DNA from: Actinoplanes sichuanensis | GTDB taxonomy: Bacteria; Actinomycetota; Actinomycetes; Mycobacteriales; Micromonosporaceae | NCBI RefSeq assembly: GCF_033097365.1 | Contig: NZ_AP028461.1 | Coordinates: 8,866,001-8,930,000, forward strand | DNA length: 64,000 nt | Reading direction: 5' to 3' | Shown: positions 11,943 through 29,308 of the stretch, piece by piece | How the letters are laid out: the number at the start of each line of letters is the position of its first letter | How positions within the stretch are numbered: the first letter of the stretch is position 1 | Position numbers and translations under genes: made by a program | Notes under the pieces: model-generated | Seen by the model: the letters and a program-made list of their open reading frames with translations, nothing else | Told to the model about the DNA's origin: nothing | Databases searched by the model: none

Positions 11943-12023
11943 GGCGGGTTGCCCGAGCGGCCAATGGGAGCGGACTGTAAATCCGTCGCGAAAGCTACAG
12001 AGGTTCGAATCCTCTACCCGCCA
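11943..12023 (+). tRNA. tRNA-Tyr (anticodon GTA), AICE attachment gene
   Basis: An 81-nt type II tRNA with a long variable arm: GGCGGGT (11943-11949) pairs with ACCCGCC (12016-12022), with discriminator A at 12023. The loop CTGTAAA gives anticodon GTA. The 3' half from 11970 is duplicated at 29250, so integration replaced the chromosomal 3' end with an identical one from the element and the tRNA stays functional. Confidence 0.96.
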
Positions 12024-12028
12024 CAGGC
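11970..12028 (+). repeat. attL, 59-bp core repeat
   Basis: Identical over 59 bases to 29250-29308. It starts at the anticodon stem of tRNA-Tyr and runs five bases past the discriminator base. The first mismatches are at 11969/29249 and 12029/29309. Confidence 0.95.
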
Positions 12029-12145: not shown

Positions 12146-13561
12146 TCAGGCGGCGTTCTGAGCGGCCGGTTGTGTCAGGCCGAGTGCCGCTTCGACCCGC
12201 CGACGGGACGCCTCGTCCTGCCCGTAGATGCACTTCGCATACACCCGCATGAGGACGTGGACGCTGTGTCCGGCCCACTCTGCGACCTGGGTCGCGGGGA
12301 CGCCCGCGTTCAGCCAGAGCGACACAGCGGCGTGCCGCAGGTCGTAGGGACGCTTCGCGAGCGGCGACCGGAGTTGAACGGGCGTAAGGGTGGCCTCGCG
12401 TGCATCGCGCCACGCCTTGCCGTAGGAGTTGCTGGGGATGGGCTGGCCGAGCGTCGGCACGTAGCGCCCGCCGGGGCCGCGCCGGGTGACGAACAGCCTG
12501 CCGTCCGGTGCGGGCTTGTACTTGCCGATGTGGTGGTCGAGCAGGGCGCAAAGAGGCGGCGGCGCGGGAACCGGACGCGTCGCGCTCTTGGCCCGGTGTT
12601 TGAGCCCGCGACGCTCGATGGTGCCGGCCTCGTCGCCCCACCCGTGCCCAACGGCGACCGTCGAACCGGTGAGGTTCAAGACGCCCCACCCACCCTCTAC
12701 CTTGGGTCGCTCGTACTCGTCCTCCCTGAGGTTCAGCACCTCCTCGGGCCGCAGCGCCGCGTAGTACATGCAGCCGAAGAACGCCACCAGTTCGGGCGTA
12801 CGGTCGCGAACGGCGGCGAGCAGCGCGCGAGCTTGCGTCGGGTTGACCACCGCCTTGCGATCGACCTCGTCGTCATGCTTCGGGGCGATCCAACTCACGA
12901 GCGACAGCGGGTGTACCTCCAGTAACCGCAGTTCGACCGCGTACTTGAGAGCGCCAGAGAAGATCGCGCGCTTCCGGGCGATGGTGCTCGGGGATGCCGG
13001 TCCGCCGTCCTTCGTGCGAAGCGCGATCGTGTCGAGGCACTTCCTGATCAGGGCGGCATCGGTCAGAGCGGACAGGTCGACGGTATTGGACTCCAGCCAC
13101 CGAACGGCAGTCGCCAACTCGGCGGGCGGGTCTCCGGCGTCGCGACGCGCCTTGTTGAACGACCAGCCGTAAAGGGCGGCGCGGATGGCCTTGTCGCTCG
13201 GCGCCCCCCTGGTGGTCGAGAGCAGCACGGGCGTGACGGTGGCCAGCGACTCGGCGATGCCCTTGCGATGCTTGGCTGAGGCGCGGGGCCATTTCACATC
13301 GACGTAGGCGGTCGCGTGGTCGTACCACGATCGGGCGTTGAGAGCGCGGGCCATCGGCTCGGGCAGACCGCGCGTCTCGTCGAACGCGACGCCCTCTCGC
13401 TGAGCGACGACCAGCTTCGATCGGAAGCTGTCGGCGAGTGCCCGAGTCGCGAACGTGTCCCGGAACGGCTTGCCGGCGACGACCCATCGGACGGTATATG
13501 AGGTGCCCTTCGCGAGCTTGTTGACCAGCACGCTGTGAACGCGGACATCGAAAGTGCTCAT
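12146..13561 (-). CDS. int: tyrosine-type site-specific integrase
   Basis: A 471-residue recombinase that integrates and excises the element at tRNA-Tyr. The C-terminal catalytic domain has the Arg in AALRPEEVL (~268), the YDLRHAAVSLW box with His/Arg (~408), the second His in WAGHSVHVLMR and the nucleophilic Tyr in RVYAKC (~439). The N-terminal SAM-like core-binding domain covers roughly 85-220. It ends 117 bp from attL and points at it. Its ATG overlaps the Xis stop (ATGA), which couples integrase to excisionase synthesis. Confidence 0.95.
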   Translation of the reverse strand: MSTFDVRVHSVLVNKLAKGTSYTVRWVVAGKPFRDTFATRALADSFRSKLVVAQREGVAFDETRGLPEPMARALNARSWYDHATAYVDVKWPRASAKHRKGIAESLATVTPVLLSTTRGAPSDKAIRAALYGWSFNKARRDAGDPPAELATAVRWLESNTVDLSALTDAALIRKCLDTIALRTKDGGPASPSTIARKRAIFSGALKYAVELRLLEVHPLSLVSWIAPKHDDEVDRKAVVNPTQARALLAAVRDRTPELVAFFGCMYYAALRPEEVLNLREDEYERPKVEGGWGVLNLTGSTVAVGHGWGDEAGTIERRGLKHRAKSATRPVPAPPPLCALLDHHIGKYKPAPDGRLFVTRRGPGGRYVPTLGQPIPSNSYGKAWRDAREATLTPVQLRSPLAKRPYDLRHAAVSLWLNAGVPATQVAEWAGHSVHVLMRVYAKCIYGQDEASRRRVEAALGLTQPAAQNAA

Positions 13562-13746
13562 GCGGCCTGCTGCTCCTCACGGCTCGACAGCCACGCGTCG
13601 AAGTCGGTACGGCGGATGCGGAGCTGCCCATTCGGCAGCTTGTAGGTACGGGGTGCCTGGCCGAGTGCCTTCCAACGGAAGAAGGTCGACTTCGGAACGT
13701 CCAGCTCGGCGAGGAAGTCAGTCAAGGTCAGAAAGGTGCGTGCCAT
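13558..13746 (-). CDS. xis: excisionase-like MerR/HTH-17 protein
   Basis: A 62-residue winged-helix DNA-binding protein with the AICE/phage excisionase pattern: a helix-turn-helix (TLTDFLAELDVPKSTFFRWKALG), then a wing and recognition segment (LPNGQLRIRRTDFDAWL). It is predicted to bend attachment-site DNA and direct the integrase toward excision. The ATG at 13746 starts the family-like region; the longer upstream frame is not similar to anything. It overlaps the integrase start by four bases. Confidence 0.88.
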   Translation of the reverse strand: MARTFLTLTDFLAELDVPKSTFFRWKALGQAPRTYKLPNGQLRIRRTDFDAWLSSREEQQAA

Positions 13747-14004
13747 GGGGTCCGGCCTCCCTGGGAGAGGGCATGTTGGGGCAACCCATGGCGGCGCTGA
13801 CCGCCGAACGGGAGCGGCGGACCTCCTTCCATGGGTGTGTTGCTGGTTAGCGAGAGAGGGCCGTACATCGGCCCGTTGAGAGCGCCGTAGAGCCAACATC
13901 CGGGGTGTCTAAGGGGTAGGACATGGCTCGGATCGGCTGTGCGGCTTTCAGGCGGTCGGGATTTCGGTGAGGGCTGGCGGGTGATGTCCCGTTGTGGGCG
14001 TGAA
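13747..14004. other. non-coding stretch between xis and the repeat cluster
   Basis: No convincing gene is present. It should contain the promoter for xis-int. The inverted fragments GGGCCG/CGGCCC (near 13859-13882) and CCATGG/CCATGGG motifs are visible, but nothing I can assign. The repeat cluster starts at 14005. Confidence 0.4.
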
Positions 14005-14213
14005 GCCGTCCCAAGCCGTCCCAGCCGTCCCAGTGCAGGTCAGCCCTGGGACGGCTTGCGGGGCTGGGACGGCTTAAGCCGTCCCACGGACATCAACTAG
14101 CGGCGGGGGCATCTCGGTGTCGATGGCGAGTTGGGACGGCTCAAGCCGTCCCACGAGGACAAGCCGTCCCGGGCCTGAGCTGGGCTGGGACGGCTGGGAC
14201 GGCTCGGGACGGC
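14005..14213. repeat. 12-copy octamer cluster, candidate replication origin
   Basis: GCCGTCCC occurs at 14005, 14015, 14024, 14078, 14145 and 14163. Its reverse complement occurs at 14048, 14066, 14133, 14187, 14196 and 14206. Most copies extend to GCCGTCCCA. Two pairs form dyads: a perfect 20-bp palindrome at 14066-14085 across the DUF3631 stop codon, and an 8-bp stem with a TCAA loop at 14133-14152. The cluster runs from non-coding DNA into the last 47 codons of the DUF3631 gene. Its density and its position by replication genes suggest an iteron-like origin or Rep-binding region. Confidence 0.6.
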
Positions 14214-15339
14214 TTGCCTCTGTCTCCGGGCCAGGCGGCGGGCAGTAGCGCTGCCACGCGTCGTGGAAGTCCTCGCGCTTGTAGCCCTTGGCCTGGTCAG
14301 ACGTGAGGTTGTAGGCCCTGGCCTGTTCCGGGGTGAAGCGGATGTTGCCGGAGGTGATCTCGTACTCCTTGAGCAGCATCCCGAGCTTCATCGGCGTAAG
14401 GCCGGCGCCGTTGTTGTACTCGGCCCATGGCGCTTCCGGGTCGGCCTTGAGCCGGTCGAGCAGCACGACCGACGGGATCTCGTCCGCGTGACCGAACGCC
14501 CGCCGACAGTCCATCAGCAGGCGGATGCGCTCGGACGCCACGGTGTTGTTGTCCCGCTCGGCGGTCAGGGTCAGCGCCGCCTCGCGGCCCCGGTCGGGCC
14601 ACTCCCCACCGGCCAGGTCGGCGACGGCGATCAGCGGTTCCCACGTGTCCGCCGCCCGGTCCTCCAGCGGCATCTCCGGCTCGGCCTTCTCCAGCGCGGC
14701 CAGGTTGCCGCGTAGCCACTCGTTGAGGTCGTTGGCGACCTGCCGAAGCGCTACCCCGTCGCGGCGGTGCCGGTACGGCGAGACGGTCTCCCCCGGCGCG
14801 CGGCGGCGCATCCGGATCACCACGGCCCGGTCCTCGATGGTGTCGGGCATCTGGCCGATCCCGGCGAGCGCGGCCATGGCGAACGTGGCGATCTTCTCGA
14901 CTTTGCGGTTGGCGTTGTCCCACCGGATCGTGGGCCGGTTGCGCTGGTGACCGGCGTTGAGCAGGCCGCGCAACTCCTCGTTGGCCTCGGCCGCCTTGCC
15001 ACCGAAGATCGTGTCGGCTTCGTCAACCAGCAGGGTCGGCGGGTCGTCTGAGCCGATCGACCGGTACACCGCCGCCGTGGACGCGTTGACCGTGATCAGC
15101 GGGTTGCACGACGTGCCTTCCACGATGTCGAGCAGCCGCGACTTCCCGCAGCGCTTCTCCGGGGCGCGGATCACCAGCCGGGGCGCGTGCGCCCACGCCT
15201 GCTGTGCGTGCGTCGCGGCGATCCACAACACGGTGGCGTCGATCGCTTCCGGCGACGGGAGCACGACGTACTTGGTGAGTGCGGCGTGTAGGCGGTCGAG
15301 GATCGCCGGTCCCTCGATCACCCGGTGGGGTTTCGTCAT
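14074..15339 (-). CDS. DUF3631 P-loop ATPase (AICE replication helicase-like)
   Basis: 421 residues of the DUF3631 family, often fused or adjacent to phage and plasmid primases and thought to act as a helicase-like ATPase. Walker A is APEKRCGKSRLL (~60), Walker B is TLLVDEADTIF (~105) and a conserved Arg-rich segment is EDRAVVIRMRRR. The C-terminal tail is Pro/Ser-rich (PSQPSQPSS) and is encoded by the octamer repeats, so it may be shaped by DNA function. The ATG at 15339 overlaps the stop of the TGT-like gene (ATGA). With the Prim-Pol gene it makes up the likely replication module. Confidence 0.85.
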   Translation of the reverse strand: MTKPHRVIEGPAILDRLHAALTKYVVLPSPEAIDATVLWIAATHAQQAWAHAPRLVIRAPEKRCGKSRLLDIVEGTSCNPLITVNASTAAVYRSIGSDDPPTLLVDEADTIFGGKAAEANEELRGLLNAGHQRNRPTIRWDNANRKVEKIATFAMAALAGIGQMPDTIEDRAVVIRMRRRAPGETVSPYRHRRDGVALRQVANDLNEWLRGNLAALEKAEPEMPLEDRAADTWEPLIAVADLAGGEWPDRGREAALTLTAERDNNTVASERIRLLMDCRRAFGHADEIPSVVLLDRLKADPEAPWAEYNNGAGLTPMKLGMLLKEYEITSGNIRFTPEQARAYNLTSDQAKGYKREDFHDAWQRYCPPPGPETEASRPEPSQPSQPSSGPGRLVLVGRLEPSQLAIDTEMPPPLVDVRGTA

Positions 15340-16187
15340 GCTGCGGCCTCCAGGTCGAATAGGGCAGGTTCCGCCCGTCGCGCAGCTGCGGCGGACAAGA
15401 CGTTGGTGCGCCAGTGCAGCGCGTAGGGCAGGCAGTTCGCGCAGTTCTTGTGCCGAGCGGCGGCGACGCATTCGGGTAGTGCAGGACGGCGCATCTTGCG
15501 GGCCACGTCCGACCACGCGAGGGAGTCGGCGGAGGTCAGCAGATGGCCGTAGGCGGTCAGCCCGAGGGTCTTGAAGCCGAACCCGTGCAGGCGCCGCACG
15601 CCGCGCATGTGCAGGGCTCGCAGGATGCGGCCGGCCTCTTTGGTGCCCTGGCGGCGGCACACCGAGCCGACCCCGACCAGCGGTAGCGTGGTCAGGTCGA
15701 TCCGCAACAGCTGCCAGTAGAGATCGACGCACCGGACGTAGTCGTCCGGGGCCTGTCCTTGGACTACCGGGATGGTGTCGAGGTCAGGGGCCAGGTCGAG
15801 CATGTCGCCGTAGTTGAGCACGGTCTTGCGCTGGTGTTCGGCCACGGAAAGGCCGGTGCCGGCGAAGCGGATCGGGCCGGCTTGTCCGCCGTTGATGACG
15901 ATGTCTTCGCACATCCAGTCTTGGGGTGCGTTCCATCGCAGGTGGCCGATCTCGTCGCGGTAGCGGCGGAGCCGGGCGATGTAGTCGCGGGTGCTGATCG
16001 TCCAGCGGCCGAACTTCTGGAGTTCGGTGAAGCCGCCGGAGTCGCACGCCCACGGCGCAGCTGCGCGAGGCAGCGTCTTGTAGACCCGTAGCCGGGTGTC
16101 GGAGACGAACAGCGGTACCCCGGCCTTGCCGAGCCATCCGGGTTGGTGGCTGCCGAGGAACAGCAGTGGTGATCGGACGGCGATCAT
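15336..16187 (-). CDS. TGT/DpdA-like guanine transglycosylase-fold protein
   Basis: 283 residues. Several landmarks of tRNA-guanine transglycosylases are visible in order: DSGGF at 49-53 (the DSGGFQ base-binding motif), PVVQGQAPDDY (TGT VQGG segment), LPLVGVGSVCRR, LHGFGFKTLG, an Asp in SADSLAW, and a terminal Cys/His cluster (CAAARHKNCANCLPYALHW) like the zinc site. The protein resembles DpdA enzymes that insert 7-deazaguanine derivatives into phage or island DNA more than housekeeping Tgt. Start and stop overlap both neighbours by four bases. DNA rather than tRNA as substrate is inferred. Confidence 0.75.
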   Translation of the reverse strand: MIAVRSPLLFLGSHQPGWLGKAGVPLFVSDTRLRVYKTLPRAAAPWACDSGGFTELQKFGRWTISTRDYIARLRRYRDEIGHLRWNAPQDWMCEDIVINGGQAGPIRFAGTGLSVAEHQRKTVLNYGDMLDLAPDLDTIPVVQGQAPDDYVRCVDLYWQLLRIDLTTLPLVGVGSVCRRQGTKEAGRILRALHMRGVRRLHGFGFKTLGLTAYGHLLTSADSLAWSDVARKMRRPALPECVAAARHKNCANCLPYALHWRTNVLSAAAARRAEPALFDLEAAA

Positions 16188-16951
16188 GCCGCTGCCCTCG
16201 TGCCGAAGGATTTTCCGTGGAGTGCGTGGAGTTCGCGGGGGTCCGCCGTAAATCCTGCGGTTTTGAGGAAGGCTCTACCCAGCCACGCGGCGTAGGCGGG
16301 CGGGATGGCCTCGGTCAGTTCCTCTCGTACGTCGGTCCAGTCGATGCCCATCGCCGCCTGCATCTCGGCCACGGACGCCTTGCCGCCGCCGTCGCCGTAC
16401 GCGGCGACGTACGGGCCGTCGTGGTAGACGCCGTGCCGCCATCCGCGCACCCGGCCCCGGTGCCGCACGTGCGCCGGTCGGGCGGTCGTCCAGCCGCCCA
16501 ACTCGAAGTTGCGGTGGCGGATCACGCCGAGCCCGAACATCTCCCCGCAGAGCGTGATGTCTTTGCGGACCGGTGCGGTGCCGTTGGGTTGCTCGATGAC
16601 GTACGGCACGCCGGAGCGGTCGAGCAGTCGACGCAGATCAGGGATGAGTTGGACGTGATCGCGGCCCCAGCCCATCGCCCGGTTGGTACCGGCGGTGAGC
16701 GTGCAGCCGTCCTGGCAGGGCGGCGAGGTGTGGATCAGCGCATACCGGCGTACCTCACCGGTACGGATCAGGCGGTGCAGGTGGGTCAACGCGTCGTCAC
16801 GGACGAACCGGTACGGGTAGCGCGGCCGGTCGGCGATGTCCACGCCGGTCACGTCGAACCCGGCCGCGTGGTACCCGGAGCTTGCCCCGCCGGAGCAGCA
16901 GAACAGATCGAGCAGCAGCGGCCGGCCCTGTCGGCGGACGTGGCGGATCAT
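16184..16951 (-). CDS. C5-cytosine DNA methyltransferase
   Basis: A compact 255-residue enzyme with motif I DLFCCSGGASSGYHAAGF, motif IV TSPPCQDG with the catalytic PCQ Cys, motif VI YVIEQPNG, motif VIII RHRNFEL and a motif X-like tail (AIPPAYAAWLGRAFL). The target-recognition region is very short, typical of solitary phage and AICE methyltransferases. No restriction endonuclease is adjacent, so self-protection or anti-restriction is more likely than a restriction system. It is coupled by ATGA overlaps to the TGT-like and Prim-Pol genes. Confidence 0.9.
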   Translation of the reverse strand: MIRHVRRQGRPLLLDLFCCSGGASSGYHAAGFDVTGVDIADRPRYPYRFVRDDALTHLHRLIRTGEVRRYALIHTSPPCQDGCTLTAGTNRAMGWGRDHVQLIPDLRRLLDRSGVPYVIEQPNGTAPVRKDITLCGEMFGLGVIRHRNFELGGWTTARPAHVRHRGRVRGWRHGVYHDGPYVAAYGDGGGKASVAEMQAAMGIDWTDVREELTEAIPPAYAAWLGRAFLKTAGFTADPRELHALHGKSFGTRAAA

Positions 16952-18006
16952 GCTGCCACCGCCAGCAGTGCGACGCCTTCGGCCCGGAATCCGCCCGTGA
17001 TGGCGGCGCGGGTGTCACGGTCTGACTGCCCGGCCGTGCGTCCGGCTTGGTAGAGCGCGGCGTGTGCGGCGTCGGCGGTGAGTGCGCCGGCGGCGACCAT
17101 GCGGGCCACGCCACGGGCGGCGCCGTAGATCGTGTTGCGGCGGGTGCCCTCGGGGGCGTGGGCGATGGCGGCCAGGTTGGCGGCGAGCAGGGCGGCCGGG
17201 TCTGAGATGCCCTCCCCCCGATGGAGTGGAGTGACGGTGCCGGCGGGTGTCGCGCTGGGCGCCTCGATCGGCCGGGCCAGCCCGACCAGCGCGCGGGGCA
17301 TCTCGATCACGGGCCGGTCGCCGACGCGTCGGTACGGCTCACCGGTGTCGGGGTGGATCGAGGGCGGGGCGACGATGTAGCCGCCGCACGCCTTGATGTC
17401 GACGCCGGGGTGGTCGCGCAGCTTGCTAGAGAGATCGCCGCCGGGGTGGCGGTAGTACAGGTGCCACCCGCCCGACCCGGTCCGTACGGCGCGGGTCGGC
17501 GGCATCAGGTCGCGGTCGATCGTGCCGCCGTTGCGCGGGTCGATGTCGATCACGCACAGGTCGCAGATCCGGCCGGTCCGGATCGCGAGCAGGCCGCCCG
17601 GCACGCGCTGGTACATGGCGTTGATCCGCGCCGGGTCGCGGGTAGCGGCGTAGAAGCCGTGACAGGTCAGGTGATCGCACGCTTGCGGGTCGTGCGCCCG
17701 GTCGGGGTCGATCTCGGCTTTCGGGCAGAGAGCGCAGTTGGCGACCGGCCGCTTGGAGCGGCCGAGCAGGAAGACGGGGTAGCCCTCGGCGGCCAGCGCG
17801 AGCGCGGCGGGCAGCGTCGGGACGTGGTCGGGCATGGTCTGCTCCCAACGGTTGATCACGGACGGCGCGTCCGCGCGGCCGACCAGCGCGGCCGGGGTGT
17901 GCGCGGGACAACGCGGACCGGGCAGGTAGGGGCGCACGTGGTCGGTGGCAAGGCAGTAGCGGCGCTCGCCACCGATCCAGTGGCCGCACGGGACAGCGCG
18001 GCTCAT
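16948..18006 (-). CDS. bifunctional primase-polymerase (Prim-Pol)
   Basis: 352 residues. An N-terminal Cys-rich region (CGHWIGGERRYC ... CPAHTP) may bind zinc. The Prim-Pol domain begins near residue 60 (LPAALALAAEGYPVFLL) with the catalytic CVIDIDPRNGG acid pair, SGGWHLYYRHP and GVDIKACGGYIVAPPS. A helical C-terminal domain follows. It is predicted to initiate replication of the excised element. It is coupled by overlap to the 99-residue gene upstream and to the methyltransferase downstream. Confidence 0.9.
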   Translation of the reverse strand: MSRAVPCGHWIGGERRYCLATDHVRPYLPGPRCPAHTPAALVGRADAPSVINRWEQTMPDHVPTLPAALALAAEGYPVFLLGRSKRPVANCALCPKAEIDPDRAHDPQACDHLTCHGFYAATRDPARINAMYQRVPGGLLAIRTGRICDLCVIDIDPRNGGTIDRDLMPPTRAVRTGSGGWHLYYRHPGGDLSSKLRDHPGVDIKACGGYIVAPPSIHPDTGEPYRRVGDRPVIEMPRALVGLARPIEAPSATPAGTVTPLHRGEGISDPAALLAANLAAIAHAPEGTRRNTIYGAARGVARMVAAGALTADAAHAALYQAGRTAGQSDRDTRAAITGGFRAEGVALLAVAA

Positions 18007-18305
18007 CAGGCGATCTCCAGATCGAAGACGTCACCCGCCGGCGCCGGTCGACGGCGCGGTTCCGGCCGTGCGGATTCGGCGACCGCGATCCGGATGTAGA
18101 CGCTGTGACGACCGGCGTCGCCCGCGCCGTGCAGCCGCCGGCGCTCGGAACGCCAGACCAGCCGCCCGGCGCTGTCGAGGGCGGTCAGCGCGGCGTCCAA
18201 CTCGTCGTGCGTGCCGTTGAGCCAGATCTCCAGTCCGCTCAGCGGCGCGTCGTTGCGGAAGTTCGGTCGGTCCGGGCGACCGCTCGGACCGCGCGGGACG
18301 GGCAT
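18006..18305 (-). CDS. 99-residue AICE protein of unknown function
   Basis: The first gene of the replication operon, starting at ATG 18305. The middle (LSGLEIWLNGTHDELDAALTALDSAGRLVWRSERRRLHGAGDAGRHSVYIRI) has an alpha/beta character, and the ends are basic or Pro-rich. Its TGA shares a base with the Prim-Pol start (TGATG), which argues for a role in replication. No family is recognised. Confidence 0.75.
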   Translation of the reverse strand: MPVPRGPSGRPDRPNFRNDAPLSGLEIWLNGTHDELDAALTALDSAGRLVWRSERRRLHGAGDAGRHSVYIRIAVAESARPEPRRRPAPAGDVFDLEIA

Positions 18306-18493
18306 GATCCATCTCCTCGTATGGTTACGTAGCGTGACGCGTGCGCGTGTTGTGTCGCGCGGTCGCGTGCCGGCGCGCGAGAGGGCGCCCAATGCGCGCG
18401 AGCGCGTGCGTGCAGGCGCGCGGGCGCGCGTAGGAGAGCTAGAACGCCTCCCGTGCGACGGTCCGCGACACCCCACGCGACACGACGCGACAG
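18306..18493. promoter_or_regulatory. alternating-GC gap between transfer and replication genes
   Basis: 188 non-coding bases are dominated by alternating GC/GT runs, with GCGCGCGAG repeated at 18373 and 18394, 21 bp apart. It must hold the promoter for the replication operon. Its position beside the TraB-type gene and its repeats make it a candidate for the cis-acting transfer locus (clt) that TraB proteins recognise. It shows no clear TraB-recognition octamer of the pSVH1 type. Confidence 0.45.
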
Positions 18494-19852
18494 TCACGCC
18501 GCGTTACTCTCCGGGGTGGTGGTGGGGTGGTAGCGGTAGCCCTTGCCGACCGGTACGCGGCGGGCTTGTCCGCCGTCGACCAGCGTCCGCAGAACGCGGT
18601 GGACGCTGCCCCGGTGAGCGGCGCCGCGCCGTTTCTTCACCCCGGCGGTGATCTCGGTAGCGGTCAGGCCGTTAGGTCCGGCATCGGCCAGCACAGCCGT
18701 GATGGCGTCGATCACCGGCGCGTCGTCGGCCTCGATCTGCGTGCTATCGGCTGCCAGGTCGGTCAGCGGCACCGCCGGAAGGTCAGCCAGGTCGGCGCCG
18801 ACCGCCGCACGCGCCGCGTCGAGGGCTTCGCCGGCCGCCGCGCGGCCACGGCGCGGCTTGGCCGCGTTGTCTCCACCCCGGTCGGCCGGTCGGGGCGCTG
18901 GCCGCGTGGCGGGCGTCTGGAACGGGTCGGCCGGCCGCTCGGCGTACGCCTCTCCGGCCGCGTCGAGGGCCACCGCCTCCAGGGACGGCCGGGCGGTCGC
19001 GAATGCCCGGGCGAGCCGGTTGACGATCGGTGGCTGGAACAGCGCGTACGAGCGGACCGGGAGCGGGTCGACGTCCGGACCGTCCTGCACATACAGCAGA
19101 CCCGGCACGTTGAACAGCGTCGTGTCGACGGTGTCGAGGTCGACGTTCTGCAGGACGAAGCCGACGTCGGCGCGGCGGTTCATCCGCAGACACAGGTTCG
19201 GGTGCAGCTGCGAGCGGAAGTCGCCGTCGTCGCCGAGCGCGGCGACGGTCGGCCGCTGGGTGGTGACGAGCACCGAGACGCCGGCCGACCGGCCGGTCTG
19301 GGCAACCTGCCGGGCCAGTTCGGTTGCCTGCGCTGCCAGCTCGACCCGGTTCGAGTCGCCGGTCTTGATCCCGAACAGCGCCGCGGCTTCGTCGATGATG
19401 ATGACGAGTAGCGGCAGGTCGGGCGTCGGTACCACCTTGTCGTCGCCCTTGCCGAGTGCCGCAGCTGCGGCCAGGATGCGGGAGCGGGCGTCGATGATGG
19501 CGACCGCCGCTTCGAGCATGGCCACGGCCTCTTCGAGGCGGGTGGCCAGCCAATCGAAGCAGGGCAGCCACGCGGCCTGTCCCTGGCCGGCTTTGGCGAC
19601 CTCGATGGCCCAGATCACCGTGTCTCCGCATGCGGCGAGGCCGCAGGTGATGACGTTGAGGGTGTTGGTCTTGCCCGAGCCGGACGCGCCGCCCATCAGC
19701 GGGTGACGCGCGCCGTGCTCGCGGGTCCACAGGTCGAGCATCATCGGCGACCGGTCGGCGCGCTCGCCGAACGGGATGCCGTCGGTGATGCGGCGCTTGC
19801 CCGGCGTCCACAGGGTCAGCCGGTCGAGCGGACGGGTCGTGGTGGTTTTCAT
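18494..19852 (-). CDS. FtsK/SpoIIIE-type DNA translocase, TraB-like
   Basis: 452 residues. Walker A is GGASGSGKT (54-62), Walker B is LLVIIIDEAA (~150), and ARQVAQTGRSAGVSVLVTTQRP is the FtsK-family sensor region. The C-terminal 60 residues form a winged helix (NGLTATEITAGVKKRRGAAHRGSVHRVLRTL), placed like the DNA-recognition domain of FtsK gamma and TraB. It is predicted to pump double-stranded DNA during mycelial conjugation. It lacks membrane segments; these are probably supplied by the upstream gene, whose TGA shares a base with this ATG. Confidence 0.9.
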   Translation of the reverse strand: MKTTTTRPLDRLTLWTPGKRRITDGIPFGERADRSPMMLDLWTREHGARHPLMGGASGSGKTNTLNVITCGLAACGDTVIWAIEVAKAGQGQAAWLPCFDWLATRLEEAVAMLEAAVAIIDARSRILAAAAALGKGDDKVVPTPDLPLLVIIIDEAAALFGIKTGDSNRVELAAQATELARQVAQTGRSAGVSVLVTTQRPTVAALGDDGDFRSQLHPNLCLRMNRRADVGFVLQNVDLDTVDTTLFNVPGLLYVQDGPDVDPLPVRSYALFQPPIVNRLARAFATARPSLEAVALDAAGEAYAERPADPFQTPATRPAPRPADRGGDNAAKPRRGRAAAGEALDAARAAVGADLADLPAVPLTDLAADSTQIEADDAPVIDAITAVLADAGPNGLTATEITAGVKKRRGAAHRGSVHRVLRTLVDGGQARRVPVGKGYRYHPTTTPESNAA

Positions 19853-20622
19853 CAGGCAGCCTCCGGGCCGTTCTCGTCGCGGGTCGTCTCGGGTTGGGGC
19901 AGGTTGGCGATGGCTGGGTGGGCGATGGTGCGGCCGGACTCCCACGGGTCGCGGTCGACGATGTGCAGGCTCACGCGGCGCGCGTTGGTCTTGTCCGGCA
20001 CGACCGTCACCGAGCCGCGCCGGTACTGGTAGCCGGACTCGATGCGGTCGCGGTTGACGTCCTTGGCGGTGTTGTTGCCGGGCAGCACGACCGACAGCAC
20101 CCGGCCGACGGCGGTGGTCTTGACGCCGGTGAGCTTCGCGCCGGCGATCCCGGCCAGCTCAGCGACCGAGTCCCAGCGCTTGCGCATGCGGTCCAGCGCG
20201 GCGGCCGACCGCAGTGTCGGGCCGCACCACCAGCCGAGACCGACCAGCGGCCAGCCGAGCGCCCACAGCCCGTACAGGTAGCCGGTGCCGGGGTGCACGG
20301 CCAGGGCGAACAGCCAGGCCAGCGCCACCAGGGCGACGGCACTGGTGTAGATCCGGTCGTAGAGGCGGTGCATGCCGATCAGCAGCCACGCCACCAGGCA
20401 TGCCAGCGCGACGGCGTACACGCCGATGAACCAGCCGCCGGCCAGGTGAGCCCACATCAGGGCCAGGCCCCACCCGACGATCGGCAGAGGGAGGGCGACG
20501 TAGAGCGGGGTGAGCTGCCACCGCCACCGGTACGCCGCCGCGCCGAGCGCGTGCAGCACCGGGTGCCGGTGCGTGGTCGGACCGAGCCCGACGTACAGGT
20601 CTTGCGACTTGCGGCGCTTCAC
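19852..20622 (-). CDS. membrane partner of the TraB-like translocase
   Basis: 256 residues with four to five hydrophobic segments between residues 38 and 132 and a soluble C-terminal half (DVNRDRIESGYQYRRGSVTVVPDKTNARRVSLHIV) that resembles the linker preceding the motor in full-length FtsK/TraB. Single-base coupling (TGATG) to the motor gene suggests the two form one split translocase. A minus-strand hairpin lies 45-80 bp upstream. The family is not named with certainty. Confidence 0.75.
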   Translation of the reverse strand: MKRRKSQDLYVGLGPTTHRHPVLHALGAAAYRWRWQLTPLYVALPLPIVGWGLALMWAHLAGGWFIGVYAVALACLVAWLLIGMHRLYDRIYTSAVALVALAWLFALAVHPGTGYLYGLWALGWPLVGLGWWCGPTLRSAAALDRMRKRWDSVAELAGIAGAKLTGVKTTAVGRVLSVVLPGNNTAKDVNRDRIESGYQYRRGSVTVVPDKTNARRVSLHIVDRDPWESGRTIAHPAIANLPQPETTRDENGPEAA

Positions 20623-24729: not shown

Positions 24730-25446
24730 TTACATCGAGTAGGTGTCCACCTGCTCGAACAGCGACCCCGGCGTGACGCCTTCTTCGCAGACCAGCGGTC
24801 GCCCATCCTTGTCGAACGCCGTGTGTCGGACCACGGCTACGGCGACAGGTTCCGGCAGCGCGAGGTGGGTTGCTTCCTCCGCCGTTGCAAGTCGCACCGT
24901 GGTTACGTCCACGCCTTCAACGGGGAATCGGCCGGTCTGCCGACTCACGTACCGAGTGGTGCCTTCCGCGATCGGAGCGGTTTGAGCCAATCGGGGCGAC
25001 GGCTCGGCCACGTCGGGCGGGAACCAGGCTTGCACGTAGCTGTGAGGGGTGCCATCAGGCATCTGCAGCACACGCACGCGGCGCAGGGCCTCTACCCCGG
25101 CCGCAAGACCGAGCGCTGAGGCTATGTGCGCCGGCGGAGCACTCCAGTCGGGCACACCAATGCGCAGGAACGGCATGCCGCCTGTTACACGCGTCGATCC
25201 GGCTCTGCGACCGCCCGAAGGGCGTGCGACAGGTGTCTCGGTGACGATGAAACCCGTCCCCTGCTTAGCCTCCACCACGCCGTCGGCTCGGAGGACATCC
25301 ATCGCCTTGACGACGGTGGCTCGCGCGACGGACCACTGTTCGGCCAGGTCACGCCCAGAGGGGATGGTCTCACCGGGCGCGAACTCCCCGGCTGCAATCC
25401 GAGACCGCAAAGACTCTGCGATCTCCTCGTACTTCAACAGCGCCAT
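24730..25446 (-). CDS. GntR/HutC-family regulator (KorSA-like)
   Basis: 238 residues: an N-terminal GntR winged helix (KYEEIAESLRSRIAAGEFAPGETIPSGRDLAEQWSVARATVVKAMDVLR, ~5-70) and a C-terminal UTRA ligand domain (~95-238). AICEs such as pSAM2 encode a GntR repressor (KorSA) that keeps replication and transfer off, and this gene sits where that repressor would be, between the transfer operon and cargo. ATG 25446 follows AAGAGGG. Operator-like palindromes on both sides of the gene suggest autoregulation. Confidence 0.88.
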   Translation of the reverse strand: MALLKYEEIAESLRSRIAAGEFAPGETIPSGRDLAEQWSVARATVVKAMDVLRADGVVEAKQGTGFIVTETPVARPSGGRRAGSTRVTGGMPFLRIGVPDWSAPPAHIASALGLAAGVEALRRVRVLQMPDGTPHSYVQAWFPPDVAEPSPRLAQTAPIAEGTTRYVSRQTGRFPVEGVDVTTVRLATAEEATHLALPEPVAVAVVRHTAFDKDGRPLVCEEGVTPGSLFEQVDTYSM

Positions 25447-25489
25447 GGACCCTCTTTCCGGTAGCTGTGCCCCGATCGATAGTGATGTT

Positions 25490-25507
25490 GGACTGGTCCA
25501 CCGGTAC
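25490..25507. promoter_or_regulatory. GntR operator 3 in divergent promoter
   Basis: GGACTGGTCCACCGGTAC is the operator core with two departures from symmetry. It lies 44 bp upstream of the gntR start and 19 bp before the methyltransferase start. A TAGCCT -10-like box at 25514-25519 puts a predicted transcription start at or next to the methyltransferase ATG (25526), with the operator over its -35 region. Confidence 0.55.
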
Positions 25508-25525
25508 ACAGGATAGCCTGTTGCG

Positions 25526-26329
25526 ATGGCGAACCCAGAGCTAGCGCCGGAGATCGAGCGGTTCTACACGCGGATCATCGATGAAAGCCTCCGACTGAGC
25601 ATGTCCGCAGACGGCCGACTTGAGCTGCTTCGAACGCAGGAGATTCTCCGGCGATTCCTGCCGTCGACGCCAGCCAAAGTGCTGGATGTCGGGGGAGGGA
25701 CGGGCGTGCATGCCCGATGGCTGGTTGCCGACGGATACCACGTCGATTTGATCGATCCAGTTGCCCGACATGTCGAACAAGCCGCAACGGTCTGTTCTGC
25801 GTCGCTGGGCGACGCTCGCTCGCTGGAGGCGGCTGACGCGAGCTACGACGTTGTGCAACTCCTGGGTCCGCTTTACCACCTCCCTGATCAAGCCGATCGG
25901 ATTCAAGCACTCCGCGAGGCCCGGCGGGTGGTGCGTCCCGGTGGCCTTGTCGCAGCTGCGGCGATTAACCGGTACGCCTCACTGTTCGAGCATGCCGCTC
26001 TTGCGCACTTACATTCCGCGCGATTGCAGGCGTCTATCTCCGCGATCCTCAGCACGTCTGTCCATGACGGGGTCCGGGGCTTCACGCTTGCCTACTTTCA
26101 TCGCGCCACTGAGCTTGCTGATGAAATGCGCGACGCCGGCCTTGTGGACGTGACCGTGATCGGGATCGAGGGACCTGCATGGTCGCTTCTCAAGGCGGTA
26201 GAACAGTCGGGCACCGAGCCCAGTGAGGGACTTTTTGAGTCCGCCCTGACGGCGGCTCGGATGGCCGAGCCCTACCCCGAACTGCTTGCGGCTAGCTCTC
26301 ATCTACTGGCCATCGGCCGGCCGGGTTGA
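25526..26329 (+). CDS. class I SAM-dependent methyltransferase
   Basis: 267 residues with motif I VLDVGGGTGVHARWLVADGYHVDLID (~50-75), motif II-like DASYDVVQLLGPLYHLPD and motif III REARRVVRPGGLVAAA. The LLGPLYHL and GGL features resemble small-molecule or UbiE/Coq5-like methyltransferases, and the substrate is unknown. No ribosome-binding site precedes the ATG, while a TAGCCT box sits six bases upstream, so the transcript is probably leaderless. It is divergent from gntR and shares its operator. Confidence 0.85.
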   Translation: MANPELAPEIERFYTRIIDESLRLSMSADGRLELLRTQEILRRFLPSTPAKVLDVGGGTGVHARWLVADGYHVDLIDPVARHVEQAATVCSASLGDARSLEAADASYDVVQLLGPLYHLPDQADRIQALREARRVVRPGGLVAAAAINRYASLFEHAALAHLHSARLQASISAILSTSVHDGVRGFTLAYFHRATELADEMRDAGLVDVTVIGIEGPAWSLLKAVEQSGTEPSEGLFESALTAARMAEPYPELLAASSHLLAIGRPG

Positions 26330-26417
26330 GAGCCGGGACATCCCCGGCGCGCGGGAGGAGACGGGGACACATCCGCGACACCTGGCGGTGTAAGGCAGCG
26401 TCAGGCAACGTGAGTCA

Positions 26418-27341
26418 GTGGAATGGAATGCCTGGTCACAGCACGTTTTCGAGCCCTACATTGATGATTACGACTTAGGGGACCAAGTGGGAATCATAGA
26501 CCAGTACTGGGCAGGCGCGCTCCATCGGTTACATGCCGAAGTTGAGGTTTTCAACCGACTGATAGCACATCAAGGCGAGCGCGGGAGGGAAAATGAACTT
26601 GCCTTAGCAAGAATCCTTGAGCGGCTGCTTCCAGGCCGGCTGGGGGTAGGGACCGGCCTACTATTCGACTCAGCCGGTAAGTATTCGAAGCAGATGGACC
26701 TGCTGCTTTATGATCGAATAGACTCCCCCACCATCCTCGCGCAGACGAATCAGCTACTCCATCCCATTGAGGAGATACAGCTAGCAATAGAGGTCAAGAG
26801 CCGACTTACCGTCGACGGCATCAACGACGCCGGAAAGAAACGATCGTCCATAAACGACTTAGCCCCGATCGGCGGAACTCACCGTCCAGCATTCGTTCTC
26901 TTCGCATACGATGCTGCGTCATCCCCCCAGGCGGTGGCGCGTAACCTCCAAGACTTAGATATCTCGGTCAGGCCGGATCTTACCTGCGTTCTCGACCCAG
27001 GATTTATCGCCGGACCTCGCAACCTCCTAGACCCCACTGCCGACTCCGAGGACTTCACCTACGGCGTCACCCTATTGCACGAATTGGACAAGGACGGCAA
27101 TCGAGCAAGCGGCAGGTATATTCGCGGCGATCCCACCGGAAATCTGCTAAAGCAACATCACGAAGGAGCCCTGTACCCGGTTGTCGACTTCGCCGGAGGA
27201 GTTGCCCTGGCAGATCCTTCACGCGCACTACTTCTATTCTGTGAGATTTTGATCAGAATGACTATCGCAGGAACCACTAGCAAGCCGCCAACACTAAGCC
27301 ACTATTTGAAGCCACCATTTCGTGACATCGAACAAGTCTAA
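26418..27341 (+). CDS. DUF6602-like protein with nuclease-type motif
   Basis: 307 residues. The stretch GRENELALARILERLLPGRLGVGTGLLFDSAGKYSKQMDLLLYD, then about 35 residues later EEIQLAIEVKSRL, matches DUF6602 and has the D...ExK arrangement of PD-(D/E)XK nucleases (Asp in QMDLLLYD, Glu and Lys in IEVKS). The gene is visibly richer in A and T and in rare codons than its surroundings, so it was probably acquired recently. It is intact. A defence or DNA-processing role is inferred from the fold pattern and its cargo position. Confidence 0.7.
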   Translation: MEWNAWSQHVFEPYIDDYDLGDQVGIIDQYWAGALHRLHAEVEVFNRLIAHQGERGRENELALARILERLLPGRLGVGTGLLFDSAGKYSKQMDLLLYDRIDSPTILAQTNQLLHPIEEIQLAIEVKSRLTVDGINDAGKKRSSINDLAPIGGTHRPAFVLFAYDAASSPQAVARNLQDLDISVRPDLTCVLDPGFIAGPRNLLDPTADSEDFTYGVTLLHELDKDGNRASGRYIRGDPTGNLLKQHHEGALYPVVDFAGGVALADPSRALLLFCEILIRMTIAGTTSKPPTLSHYLKPPFRDIEQV

Positions 27342-27355
27342 AGGGCGAGTCCGCC

Positions 27356-27904
27356 CTAGCGCACTCGCGTTGTAGGCGGAATTGGCGGCGGCATAGTCAT
27401 GGGCCGAAGAACATTGGAGATGAAGTCGGCTGGACTGATGGTCGGAATCGTAAGTTTTTTGCAGACTTCGCCGAGGGGTGCGCGCCCTGGGCGCGGGCGG
27501 TGGTCGTTCGTGATTACTGAGCATTCGACGCCAGCATCTTGAAGCTCAAGCACGTAGCCCACGACAGCAACGATGCACGTTCCGTCGCGGCCCTCGACGA
27601 CGAAATCCAAACCGTCAGCATAGCCGTTCGCTTGAGCCCACCCCTGAGCCTTCCGCTTGTATCCGTAAGCGACAGAACAGCTCATGCTGCCCTGAACCGC
27701 CTCAAGCCAGATAAGCAACTGAGTGTCCGTCTCAGGATCAGCGCGGCGCTCTACATCGACAGCCACCTCCGGCGGGAAACGGAACTCCTTCGCGCGAACT
27801 AATTGCGTCATGGCTTTACAGAAGGCCACCTGACGCCGCTGCGGAAATCCGTCGATCAGGGCGAACATGGCGCGGTCGTCGGGCAGATAGACTCGGCCCG
27901 CCAT
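27356..27904 (-). CDS. PIN-like toxin candidate paired with ImmA/IrrE gene
   Basis: 182 residues. The C-terminal part (YVLELQDAGVECSVITNDHRPRPGRAPLGEVCKKLTIPTISPADFI) reads like the end of a PIN ribonuclease domain (ITND followed by a helix and a strand). The N-terminal DxN motif of classical PIN domains is not obvious, so the assignment is tentative. It starts at ATG 27904, whose T is shared with the TAA of the upstream HTH-ImmA gene (TAATG). HTH-ImmA/IrrE plus PIN-like pairs are a predicted toxin-antitoxin type. Confidence 0.5.
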   Translation of the reverse strand: MAGRVYLPDDRAMFALIDGFPQRRQVAFCKAMTQLVRAKEFRFPPEVAVDVERRADPETDTQLLIWLEAVQGSMSCSVAYGYKRKAQGWAQANGYADGLDFVVEGRDGTCIVAVVGYVLELQDAGVECSVITNDHRPRPGRAPLGEVCKKLTIPTISPADFISNVLRPMTMPPPIPPTTRVR

Positions 27905-29037
27905 TACTCGGCACCCTCATTGAGTAGCCCCCGCAATTCCTTCAACTCGGCTCTCGACAGGTTGAGGAGGTCAACCAGATCAGCGTTCTCTAGTTCACCT
28001 TCTTCCTCAGCCGCCATAAGGCGCCCGACAAAACCGGCACCATACCGCTGCAACTTTCGCCTGGCTCGCGTCTGAGGCGGGCCCCCGACGCCGCCGCCTC
28101 TGGACTGATTGGAAATTAGCTTATTGATTTTGCCATAGAGACCTGGCACTCCCATGCCAAGCGACTCAAAACGTCGAGCCATTGCGCGGTAACTAACGTT
28201 GAGCTGATTCGCCGCCCAACGGACCTCTTCGAGAGAATCAACTTCCTGTACGTGAAACTTCCGAAGCATATAGTCCGCGAGAACTGGGCGCGGCATGAGA
28301 AAAGCCGCAGCTACGTTGTCGCACCACGTGTCCGTTCCACTTGCCGGCGAGGCGTCACAAATTGACTCGATGCCAAGCATGAGGTGACCACACTCATGAA
28401 TGTAGGAAAATGATCGCGCCCTAATGTCATCTCGCGTATTGATAGCGATCACCGGAGCAATCGAATCCGGCAGCGAGAATCCACGAAATCCGCCGTCACT
28501 TAAGGTCAAGTTGAGCGCGATGATTCCTCGCTGCTCGATCCGGGCCCTAAGGAGTTTGGCTACCTCGTGGTCCTTCGCCTTTATCTGCTCCCGAGTCGAC
28601 CAGCCTAACCACGCCCGAGCTTCCTCAGCGACGGCCTCAGGCGGGTCGCCAATCGATGCACGCGGAATTTCTAGGACCCTGCGGTCCTCCCCCAGCCACC
28701 GCATGACACGTTGGAGATTCTGAGCAAGCTTGATCGCTTTAAGGTCTTCGGGAGTAGGGGTGTGCGGCCCAGTCCGGCTCGCATGACTTCGAAATCGCGT
28801 CGCGCTGGAGGACGACGGCGGCGGACTCGCGAGGAAGAAGACCGACTCAGGCCGGTCGAGCAGCTTTCGAAGCTGGTCGAACTTCGTCTTGCTCGGATGC
28901 GCCGTGCCCGCGATCCAGTCAGCAATCTGGCTTTGGCTCACGCCGAGTTGGCTCGCCACCTCAGCGTTGCTGAGCCCCGCCTCGCCTATGGCCCAGGCCA
29001 GCACCGAGCCAGTGATCGGAACTAGCACGGTCGGCAT
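27904..29037 (-). CDS. XRE HTH - ImmA/IrrE metallopeptidase
   Basis: 377 residues. An N-terminal Cro/CI helix-turn-helix (LSNAEVASQLGVSQSQIADWIAGTAHPSKTKFDQLRKLL, ~20-60) precedes a zinc-peptidase domain with HECGH in SYIHECGHLMLG (~225) and the downstream CDNVAAAFLMP helix. Such proteins act as antitoxins or as proteases that cleave repressors and antitoxins to switch mobile elements. I chose ATG 29037 because the HTH follows it; the longer upstream frame is not similar to anything. It lies at the attR end of the element with lower GC than the core. Confidence 0.85.
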   Translation of the reverse strand: MPTVLVPITGSVLAWAIGEAGLSNAEVASQLGVSQSQIADWIAGTAHPSKTKFDQLRKLLDRPESVFFLASPPPSSSSATRFRSHASRTGPHTPTPEDLKAIKLAQNLQRVMRWLGEDRRVLEIPRASIGDPPEAVAEEARAWLGWSTREQIKAKDHEVAKLLRARIEQRGIIALNLTLSDGGFRGFSLPDSIAPVIAINTRDDIRARSFSYIHECGHLMLGIESICDASPASGTDTWCDNVAAAFLMPRPVLADYMLRKFHVQEVDSLEEVRWAANQLNVSYRAMARRFESLGMGVPGLYGKINKLISNQSRGGGVGGPPQTRARRKLQRYGAGFVGRLMAAEEEGELENADLVDLLNLSRAELKELRGLLNEGAE

Positions 29038-29249
29038 GGACTCATTGAACCATCGTCGACTACCGAGCGTCGAGACGCTGTAAGCCCTGAGTACATCTAA
29101 CCTGCCCGTGGCGTGTACTGCTAAAACAGACACACCCCATGTTGTTGCTTCCGGACGCCTTACCGGATTCTTCTCGCCCGACTCCTGTCGAACACGTGTC
29201 GGCAACCAGCCAGTCAAGGGTATTTGACCAGGTAGAGAGCGTGGAGAAG
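29038..29249. other. non-coding right end of the AICE
   Basis: No gene is apparent. It should hold the ImmA/IrrE promoter (minus strand). GTCAA-GGGTAT-TTGAC is visible at 29213-29228, and the candidate arm-type sites lie at 29184-29203. The attR core starts at 29250. Confidence 0.5.
29184..29203 (+). promoter_or_regulatory. candidate integrase arm-type sites, right
   Basis: CCTGTCG at 29184 and CGTGTCGGC at 29195 have the same 11-bp spacing and orientation as the left pair at 12124 and 12135. ACGTGTCGGC is shared exactly (12134-12143 and 29194-29203). In the circular form they would flank the attP core. Confidence 0.4.
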
Positions 29250-29308
29250 GCGGACTGTAAATCCGTCGCGAAAGCTACAGAGGTTCGAATCCTCTACCCG
29301 CCACAGGC
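29250..29308 (+). repeat. attR, 59-bp core repeat (tRNA-Tyr 3' fragment)
   Basis: An exact copy of 11970-12028: the 3' part of tRNA-Tyr from the anticodon stem through the discriminator, without the 5' half. It marks the original chromosomal 3' end of the tRNA gene displaced by integration and is not a working tRNA gene. Confidence 0.95.

Follow-up and report, generated by a model that had tools for sequence, protein, structure and literature searches.

A DpdA-like gene recurs in the replication modules of actinomycete integrative and conjugative elements and may help them escape restriction

The closest described systems come from phages, chromosomal islands and conjugative elements. In Escherichia phage CAjan, DpdA is essential for insertion of the modified base, and an anti-restriction role has been shown for CAjan and phage 9g (available part of PMC6884629). 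The CAjan dpdA gene lies near DNA polymerase and processivity-factor genes, in a cluster that also holds a gene for a transporter of preQ0 (7-cyano-7-deazaguanine), and the phage has its own queC-D-E. Base hypermodification is known as anti-restriction from phages, and as defence from chromosomal Dpd islands (dpdA-K). Here we describe a DpdA-like protein, P0003, encoded in a 17.3 kb element at a tRNA-Tyr gene of Actinoplanes sichuanensis, within a 64,000 nt stretch of NZ_AP028461.1 (the window, in which positions are counted). This element shares with the RepAM/Prim-Pol actinomycete integrative and conjugative elements (AICEs) a tRNA-site integrase, an FtsK-type Tra and a Prim-Pol near RepAM; compared with those AICEs, as the available text of PMC3218068 presents them, the DpdA gene inside the module is an addition. 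In that survey text, the words 'queuine' and 'tRNA-ribosyltransferase' have 0 occurrences, and no report of DpdA in AICEs was met in the literature searched (most subscription journals were outside its coverage). We conclude that AICE-borne DpdA is real, recurrent and unreported in the literature searched.

By its genes and repeats the element is an AICE, its excision and transfer being predicted. An integrase and a helix-turn-helix (HTH) protein adjoin tRNA-Tyr within the element, and 59-nt direct repeats, an FtsK/SpoIIIE-type Tra, RepAM and Prim-Pol are all present, so that the AICE with a replication operon proposed by a first-pass annotation of the window stands. Transcription on the minus strand runs from Prim-Pol to the methylase, DpdA and RepAM, with 4-base overlaps at 16948-16951 and 16184-16187 (both ATGA) and at 15336-15339. 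The RepAM open reading frame is listed as 14074-15732(-), and the ATGA overlap at 15336-15339 puts its start at 15339. Reading these three junctions bore out the claim that DpdA sits between the methylase and DUF3631 (RepAM) genes with four-base overlaps; 'followed by Prim-Pol' is true in plus-strand coordinates only, as in transcription Prim-Pol is upstream.

P0003 (283 aa) matches PF23859 (DpdA) with 262 bits, against a cut-off of 27 (E 5e-78), and PHROG 1279 (E 3e-80), which bears out a DpdA-like protein, as proposed, at 15336-16187(-). PF23859 is its only Pfam match at E<=0.01, the TGT family PF01702 being absent; at the same threshold no NCBIfam model is matched, the NF041059 equivalog included, nor any PADLOC model at E<=1. 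The protein contains the motifs DSGGF (49-53), QDW (89-91), QG (143-144) and ADS (220-222), whose residues presumably have the roles that they play in TGT catalysis. Conserved across ten homologues are D49-S-G-G-F, Q89-D90-W, Q143-G144, G174-S, H201 and D221-S. In an alignment of 147 rows, not deduplicated, D49 and D90 are invariant (147/147) and D221 is present in 145, the two others being gaps. The predicted TGT-type catalytic residues of P0003 are thus intact. The zinc cluster, which had been claimed together with the DSGGF and QG motifs, was found as a zinc-like set, H246, C249 and C252; C240 is variable and C249 is replaced by Glu in 17/147 rows. In the AlphaFold model (pLDDT 80.8, pTM 0.81, with the last 12 residues and residues 226-234 poor), strands and helices alternate, D49 is at a strand end and D221 is within a strand, a placement that would be expected for a TGT-type barrel. 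A PDB sequence search gave no match for P0003, and alignment A3 gave a single chance hit (E 1.3).

DpdA recurs in AICE modules. A six-sequence alignment was scanned against a collection of genomes from 84,980 species, which yielded 155 relatives; the best 80 were retained, and the neighbourhoods were classed with iterated hidden Markov models built from the window proteins. A locus counted as AICE context if the strand of DpdA carried, within 10 kb, Prim-Pol or RepAM together with Tra or integrase. Among the best 80 of the 155 relatives, 51 were in AICE context, 9 more had Tra and integrase, and 20 had neither, some of the non-AICE loci being on short contigs. Taxonomy-drawn samples gave 6 AICE loci out of 27 in the order of the host (including a second copy in its own genome) and 22 out of 39 in Streptomyces. 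Over all sets, window included, 74 distinct AICE loci carry DpdA, once 11 loci taken as duplicates from their contig or genome had been removed. In most AICE loci the gene adjoins Prim-Pol inside the replication operon. It lies upstream of Prim-Pol in 57 loci and downstream in 17, the window being among the latter. Of 10 cluster representatives of small DpdA neighbours in AICEs, Pfam matched one HTH and one DUF2637 protein. Plasmids, and phages that lack this operon, have homologues as well.

In a phylogenetic tree (L047 and L214 also dropped, group names taken from record titles), the AICE proteins fall into at least 3 groups, with phage, Vut_1-linked and other proteins interspersed and deeper nodes weakly supported. 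The first is a Streptomyces clade in which 44/45 members are from AICEs (support 0.998), the second comes from Actinomadura/Nonomuraea/Streptosporangium, and the third, from Micromonosporaceae/Pseudonocardiaceae, holds the window DpdA. The ratio of non-synonymous to synonymous substitution rates (dN/dS) was 0.10-0.19 in 25 of 26 close, non-independent pairs (dS < 0.36), with L040/L041 as the exception (0.40). It was computed with an NG86 script on GC-rich genes, and distant pairs, which look saturated, were unused. Low values were also obtained where neither host has QueC or Vut_1 (L113/L115, 0.10; L139/L140, 0.17; L109/L112, 0.15). DpdA is therefore under purifying selection, also between hosts without these two genes.

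The host could supply the base. Its 12.1 Mb genome, one contig, has a single QueC above the cut-off, some 0.8 Mb from the element, in a row of genes encoding QueC, QueE, QueD, FolE2, DpdC, DpdB, DpdA and a second DpdB, followed by DpdE, DpdF, a weak DpdG, DpdH, DpdJ and DpdD; DpdI and DpdK were not recognised in the island. The island DpdA (447 aa) matches NF041059 with 612 bits. From its gene content this locus appears to be a functional Dpd modification-restriction island, and since folE2-queD-queE-queC stand beside dpd genes, preQ0 can be borrowed, and for DNA modification. The proposal that the base could come from the host is hence upheld by QueC, QueE, QueD and FolE2 in the chromosome; that these genes are within a Dpd island, and that DpdA recurs in many AICEs, had both been missed. 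The related claim of no preQ0 genes in the window holds for QueC, and no QueD or QueE match turned up in the 20 kb surrounding the element, the extent of the search for these two. QueC, QueE, QueD and FolE2 were also absent from the element neighbourhoods (0 in 108 + 39 sequences queried), and the idea that the elements themselves carry preQ0 genes was rejected. The island and AICE DpdA, for which the same precursor is proposed, coexist in this genome; the island enzyme is of another subfamily that works with DpdB and that P0003 does not match. A second PF23859 DpdA of the genome (L006 9160-10074, ~6.44 Mb, 350 bits) has WhiB-like and HD-domain genes next to it, and AICE genes were not recognised in its surroundings.

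A further link to queuosine-type bases comes from a transporter. On a Nocardia plasmid, a VUT-family gene annotated for queuosine salvage is immediately upstream of a DpdA homologue. With 12 further distinct loci and 4 Streptomyces loci, such Vut_1-DpdA pairs amount to 17, all in plasmids or other non-AICE contexts, and in one record (L048/L132) the two are in a single reading frame, possibly a fusion. We take YhhQ to be a member of the VUT family. YhhQ is a preQ0 transporter, according to the available parts of PMC6884629 and PMC11888242. This pairing links the DpdA family with queuosine-type bases along a line of evidence separate from the QueC statistics. The idea that Vut_1 is what supplies the AICEs with preQ0 was rejected, as 0/17 pair loci show Prim-Pol or RepAM. 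Because the putative preQ0 transporter encoded near the CAjan dpdA is a weak match, under the model cut-off, the Vut_1 model is weak on divergent members and Vut_1 absences are soft.

Co-occurrence was measured with tests that ignore shared ancestry and genome size. In the order, a P0003-like gene is present in 24 of 397 genomes, QueC in 30 and the island DpdA in 11. With the own genome excluded, QueC was found in 8/23 genomes with DpdA versus 21/373 without (p=7e-5), and the island in 3/23 versus 7/373 (p=0.016). The order and Streptomyces strata combined gave an odds ratio of 4.1 for DpdA versus Dpd island (p=0.0015); for AICE-context genes only, Streptomyces yielded the island in 3/19 versus 14/276 (p=0.09). 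We also hand-picked 50 loci, one per genome, in Prim-Pol or Tra/integrase context, excluding L070 and L116 (metagenome-assembled genomes), L085 and L141-L143. Vut_1 is present in 13 of 50 host genomes, the own genome having none, and since QueC accompanies it in 11 of these it adds two genomes. Leaving out L107, 49 hosts were counted, six of which (L074, L075, L084, L087, L105, L108) have Tra and integrase with no recognised Prim-Pol. By organism names and known taxonomy, 25 of the 49 are named Streptomyces, 14 belong to the order of the window and 10 are others: QueC is in 18 and the island in 13, all within the 18 (p=2e-7 versus pooled backgrounds, which may share genomes with the host set). 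For Streptomyces-named hosts alone, the island is in 6/25 versus 17/295 (p=0.005). In the genus of G414, the background for QueC (6/35 including G414) was too small and was unused. An island excess general to mobile-element-rich genomes may also explain the co-occurrence. Genome G636, from a Streptomyces that has a Dpd island, holds three AICE loci, L193, L196 and L197, each with its own DpdA.

We think it somewhat probable that the element, as it replicates, receives a preQ0-type base from the AICE DpdA and that its double-stranded transfer DNA resists restriction as a result. Tra of AICEs moves double-stranded DNA (available part of PMC9513070), and these elements should then face restriction much as phages do. 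In this view a phage-type DpdA is part of the replication module. Acting on the excised element as it replicates, the enzyme would take guanine out of element DNA and insert preQ0, or a close relative, made by the host FolE2, QueD, QueE and QueC of the chromosomal Dpd island. The element would enter recipients as double-stranded DNA already bearing the foreign base and survive restriction, with protection confined to hosts able to synthesise the precursor or take it up. P0003 is DpdA-like when set beside the systems of CAjan and 9g (available part of PMC6884629), its aspartate motifs being in register with those of CAjan; CAjan is a phage with its own queC-D-E and a DpdA outside PF23859, whereas the window DpdA sits in a conjugative element.

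Several observations weigh against this proposal. The PF23859 family is only weakly similar to CAjan DpdA (hhalign E 0.0035, probability 9%), although the aspartate motifs are in register, and the experimentally proven CAjan protein has no PF23859 match, like the 7-11 homologue. With both proteins outside PF23859 and solved structures far by sequence, the name of the family rests on similarity; its comparison with the host island DpdA gave hhalign E 0.006 and probability 6%. We know of no PF23859 member that is a proven DNA modifier. The DpdA-only mycobacteriophage Orion, whose protein may belong to PF23859, shows no modified base in a host without the pathway, according to the available part of PMC6884629. 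In Streptomyces alone, the association with the island gives p=0.08 (295 genomes: gene in 30, island in 17, both in 4). With the own genome set aside, the 8 QueC overlaps in the order all come from one family, f15, for which the p-value hinges on how many genomes the family comprises, and in the window's family 0/3 other DpdA-bearing genomes have QueC. Both QueC and Vut_1 are missing from 29/49 hosts. Finally, the Dpd island of this host may by itself modify the element in its integrated state.

A narrower form of restriction escape, which we regard as possible though doubtful, is that the AICE DpdA is a dedicated counter to Dpd islands: using host preQ0, it would copy the host's self mark onto double-stranded transfer DNA, and its recruitment to the Prim-Pol module would have happened several times. 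Somewhat less likely still is that the branch of PF23859 found in AICEs and mycobacteriophages has diverged and inserts another base, one found in hosts without preQ0 genes, the QueC/Dpd link reflecting shared ancestry or island-rich genomes. The 29/49 hosts mentioned above and the purifying selection between such hosts would fit this, as would the phage members: 391/400 matching phage records are Mycobacterium phages, and the mycobacteriophage host is said to lack the preQ0 pathway (available part of PMC6884629). DpdA-only mycobacteriophages are the nearest annotated phage relatives of P0003 (~50% identity; the TiniBug protein scores 586 bits against PF23859), and they have a host without preQ0 genes, unlike the window DpdA. 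The 17 loci that pair Vut_1 with DpdA and the QueC association at order level (p=7e-5) argue against another base.

We consider it improbable that a captured phage gene was kept for a role other than restriction escape, such as replication control, or exclusion of phages or rival elements via the modified base. In favour of such a role, DpdA belongs to the replication operon and is a neighbour of Prim-Pol in most AICE loci, and TiniBug DpdA is close to the tyrosine integrase and immunity repressor; yet DpdA also occurs on plasmids and in phages that lack this operon, and it is associated with Dpd islands. That P0003 modifies tRNA like Tgt, as its TGT-type motifs and the annotation of phage homologues as queuine tRNA-ribosyltransferase would have it, is very improbable, given the lack of a Pfam TGT match at E<=0.01, a host genome with no Tgt at E<=0.001, and a Dpd island that supplies precursor genes in this host.

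The neighbouring methylase P0002 (16184-16951), annotated at first as a C5 methyltransferase, can be kept as a DNA methyltransferase from PHROG 363 and its PPCQ motif, and it has phage homologues; no Pfam or NCBIfam family was matched at E<=0.01. C5 methylases in AICEs are already listed in the available part of PMC3218068. A P0002 homologue was found in 3/74 distinct AICE loci (window, L041, L180), which weakens the idea that the element modifies its own DNA twice; a methylase-DpdA functional unit was rejected as a general feature. In L180, a Streptomyces AICE (genome G567), the methylase is immediately upstream of DpdA, as in the window; L122, outside the AICE class, also has a homologue, ~6 kb from DpdA. 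The lower-GC end of the element (24730-29217), with a GntR/UTRA regulator, an S-adenosylmethionine methyltransferase, a DUF6602 protein and an HTH plus peptidase M78 protein, is apparently cargo or regulation. Coordinates are collected in Table 1.

Table 1. Features of the element (window positions), with the host Dpd island and the Vut_1-DpdA loci
Feature	Position	Strand	Evidence
tRNA-Tyr gene, integration site	11943..12024	+	ARAGORN
Attachment repeat, tRNA side	11970..12028	.	59-nt direct repeat, 100% identical to 29250-29308
Tyrosine integrase	12146..13561	-	PF00589, E 2e-5, 24.9 bits, slightly below curated cut-off 27.1
HTH protein, probable excisionase (open reading frame as listed, start provisional)	13558..13899	-	PF12728, E 1e-3, below curated cut-off
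RepAM-type (DUF3631) replication protein	14074..15339	-	PF12307, E 5e-62; start set by ATGA overlap
DpdA-like base-exchange enzyme (P0003)	15336..16187	-	PF23859, E 5e-78; PHROG 1279; predicted catalytic residues
Phage-type DNA methylase (P0002), probably C5	16184..16951	-	PHROG 363, E 4e-31; PPCQ motif; phage homologues
Prim-Pol primase-polymerase	16948..18006	-	PF09250, E 2e-28
Small open reading frame between Tra and Prim-Pol	18006..18497	-	no Pfam match; 1-base overlap
FtsK/SpoIIIE-type Tra (open reading frame as listed, start probably internal)	18494..19945	-	PF01580, E 4e-9, 36.7 bits vs cut-off 24
Attachment repeat, far end of element	29250..29308	.	59-nt direct repeat
Host Dpd island, two dpdB copies	L005 1959-8950 + L007 2283-19719, ~9.67-9.70 Mb		
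Vut_1-DpdA loci	L145 4411-6284; L045, L046, L047, L048 (=L132), L051, L053, L055, L056, L057, L086, L136, L144, L184, L203, L206, L209		

AICE hosts with precursor genes are natural settings for testing the PF23859 family, most of whose phage members among the matches listed come from mycobacteriophages; the host of these phages reportedly has no precursor pathway. If the AICE DpdA is indeed a counter to Dpd islands, a conjugative element would be protected by phage-style base hypermodification. More generally, a recurrent DpdA in the AICE replication module would extend the phage anti-restriction strategy to conjugation.

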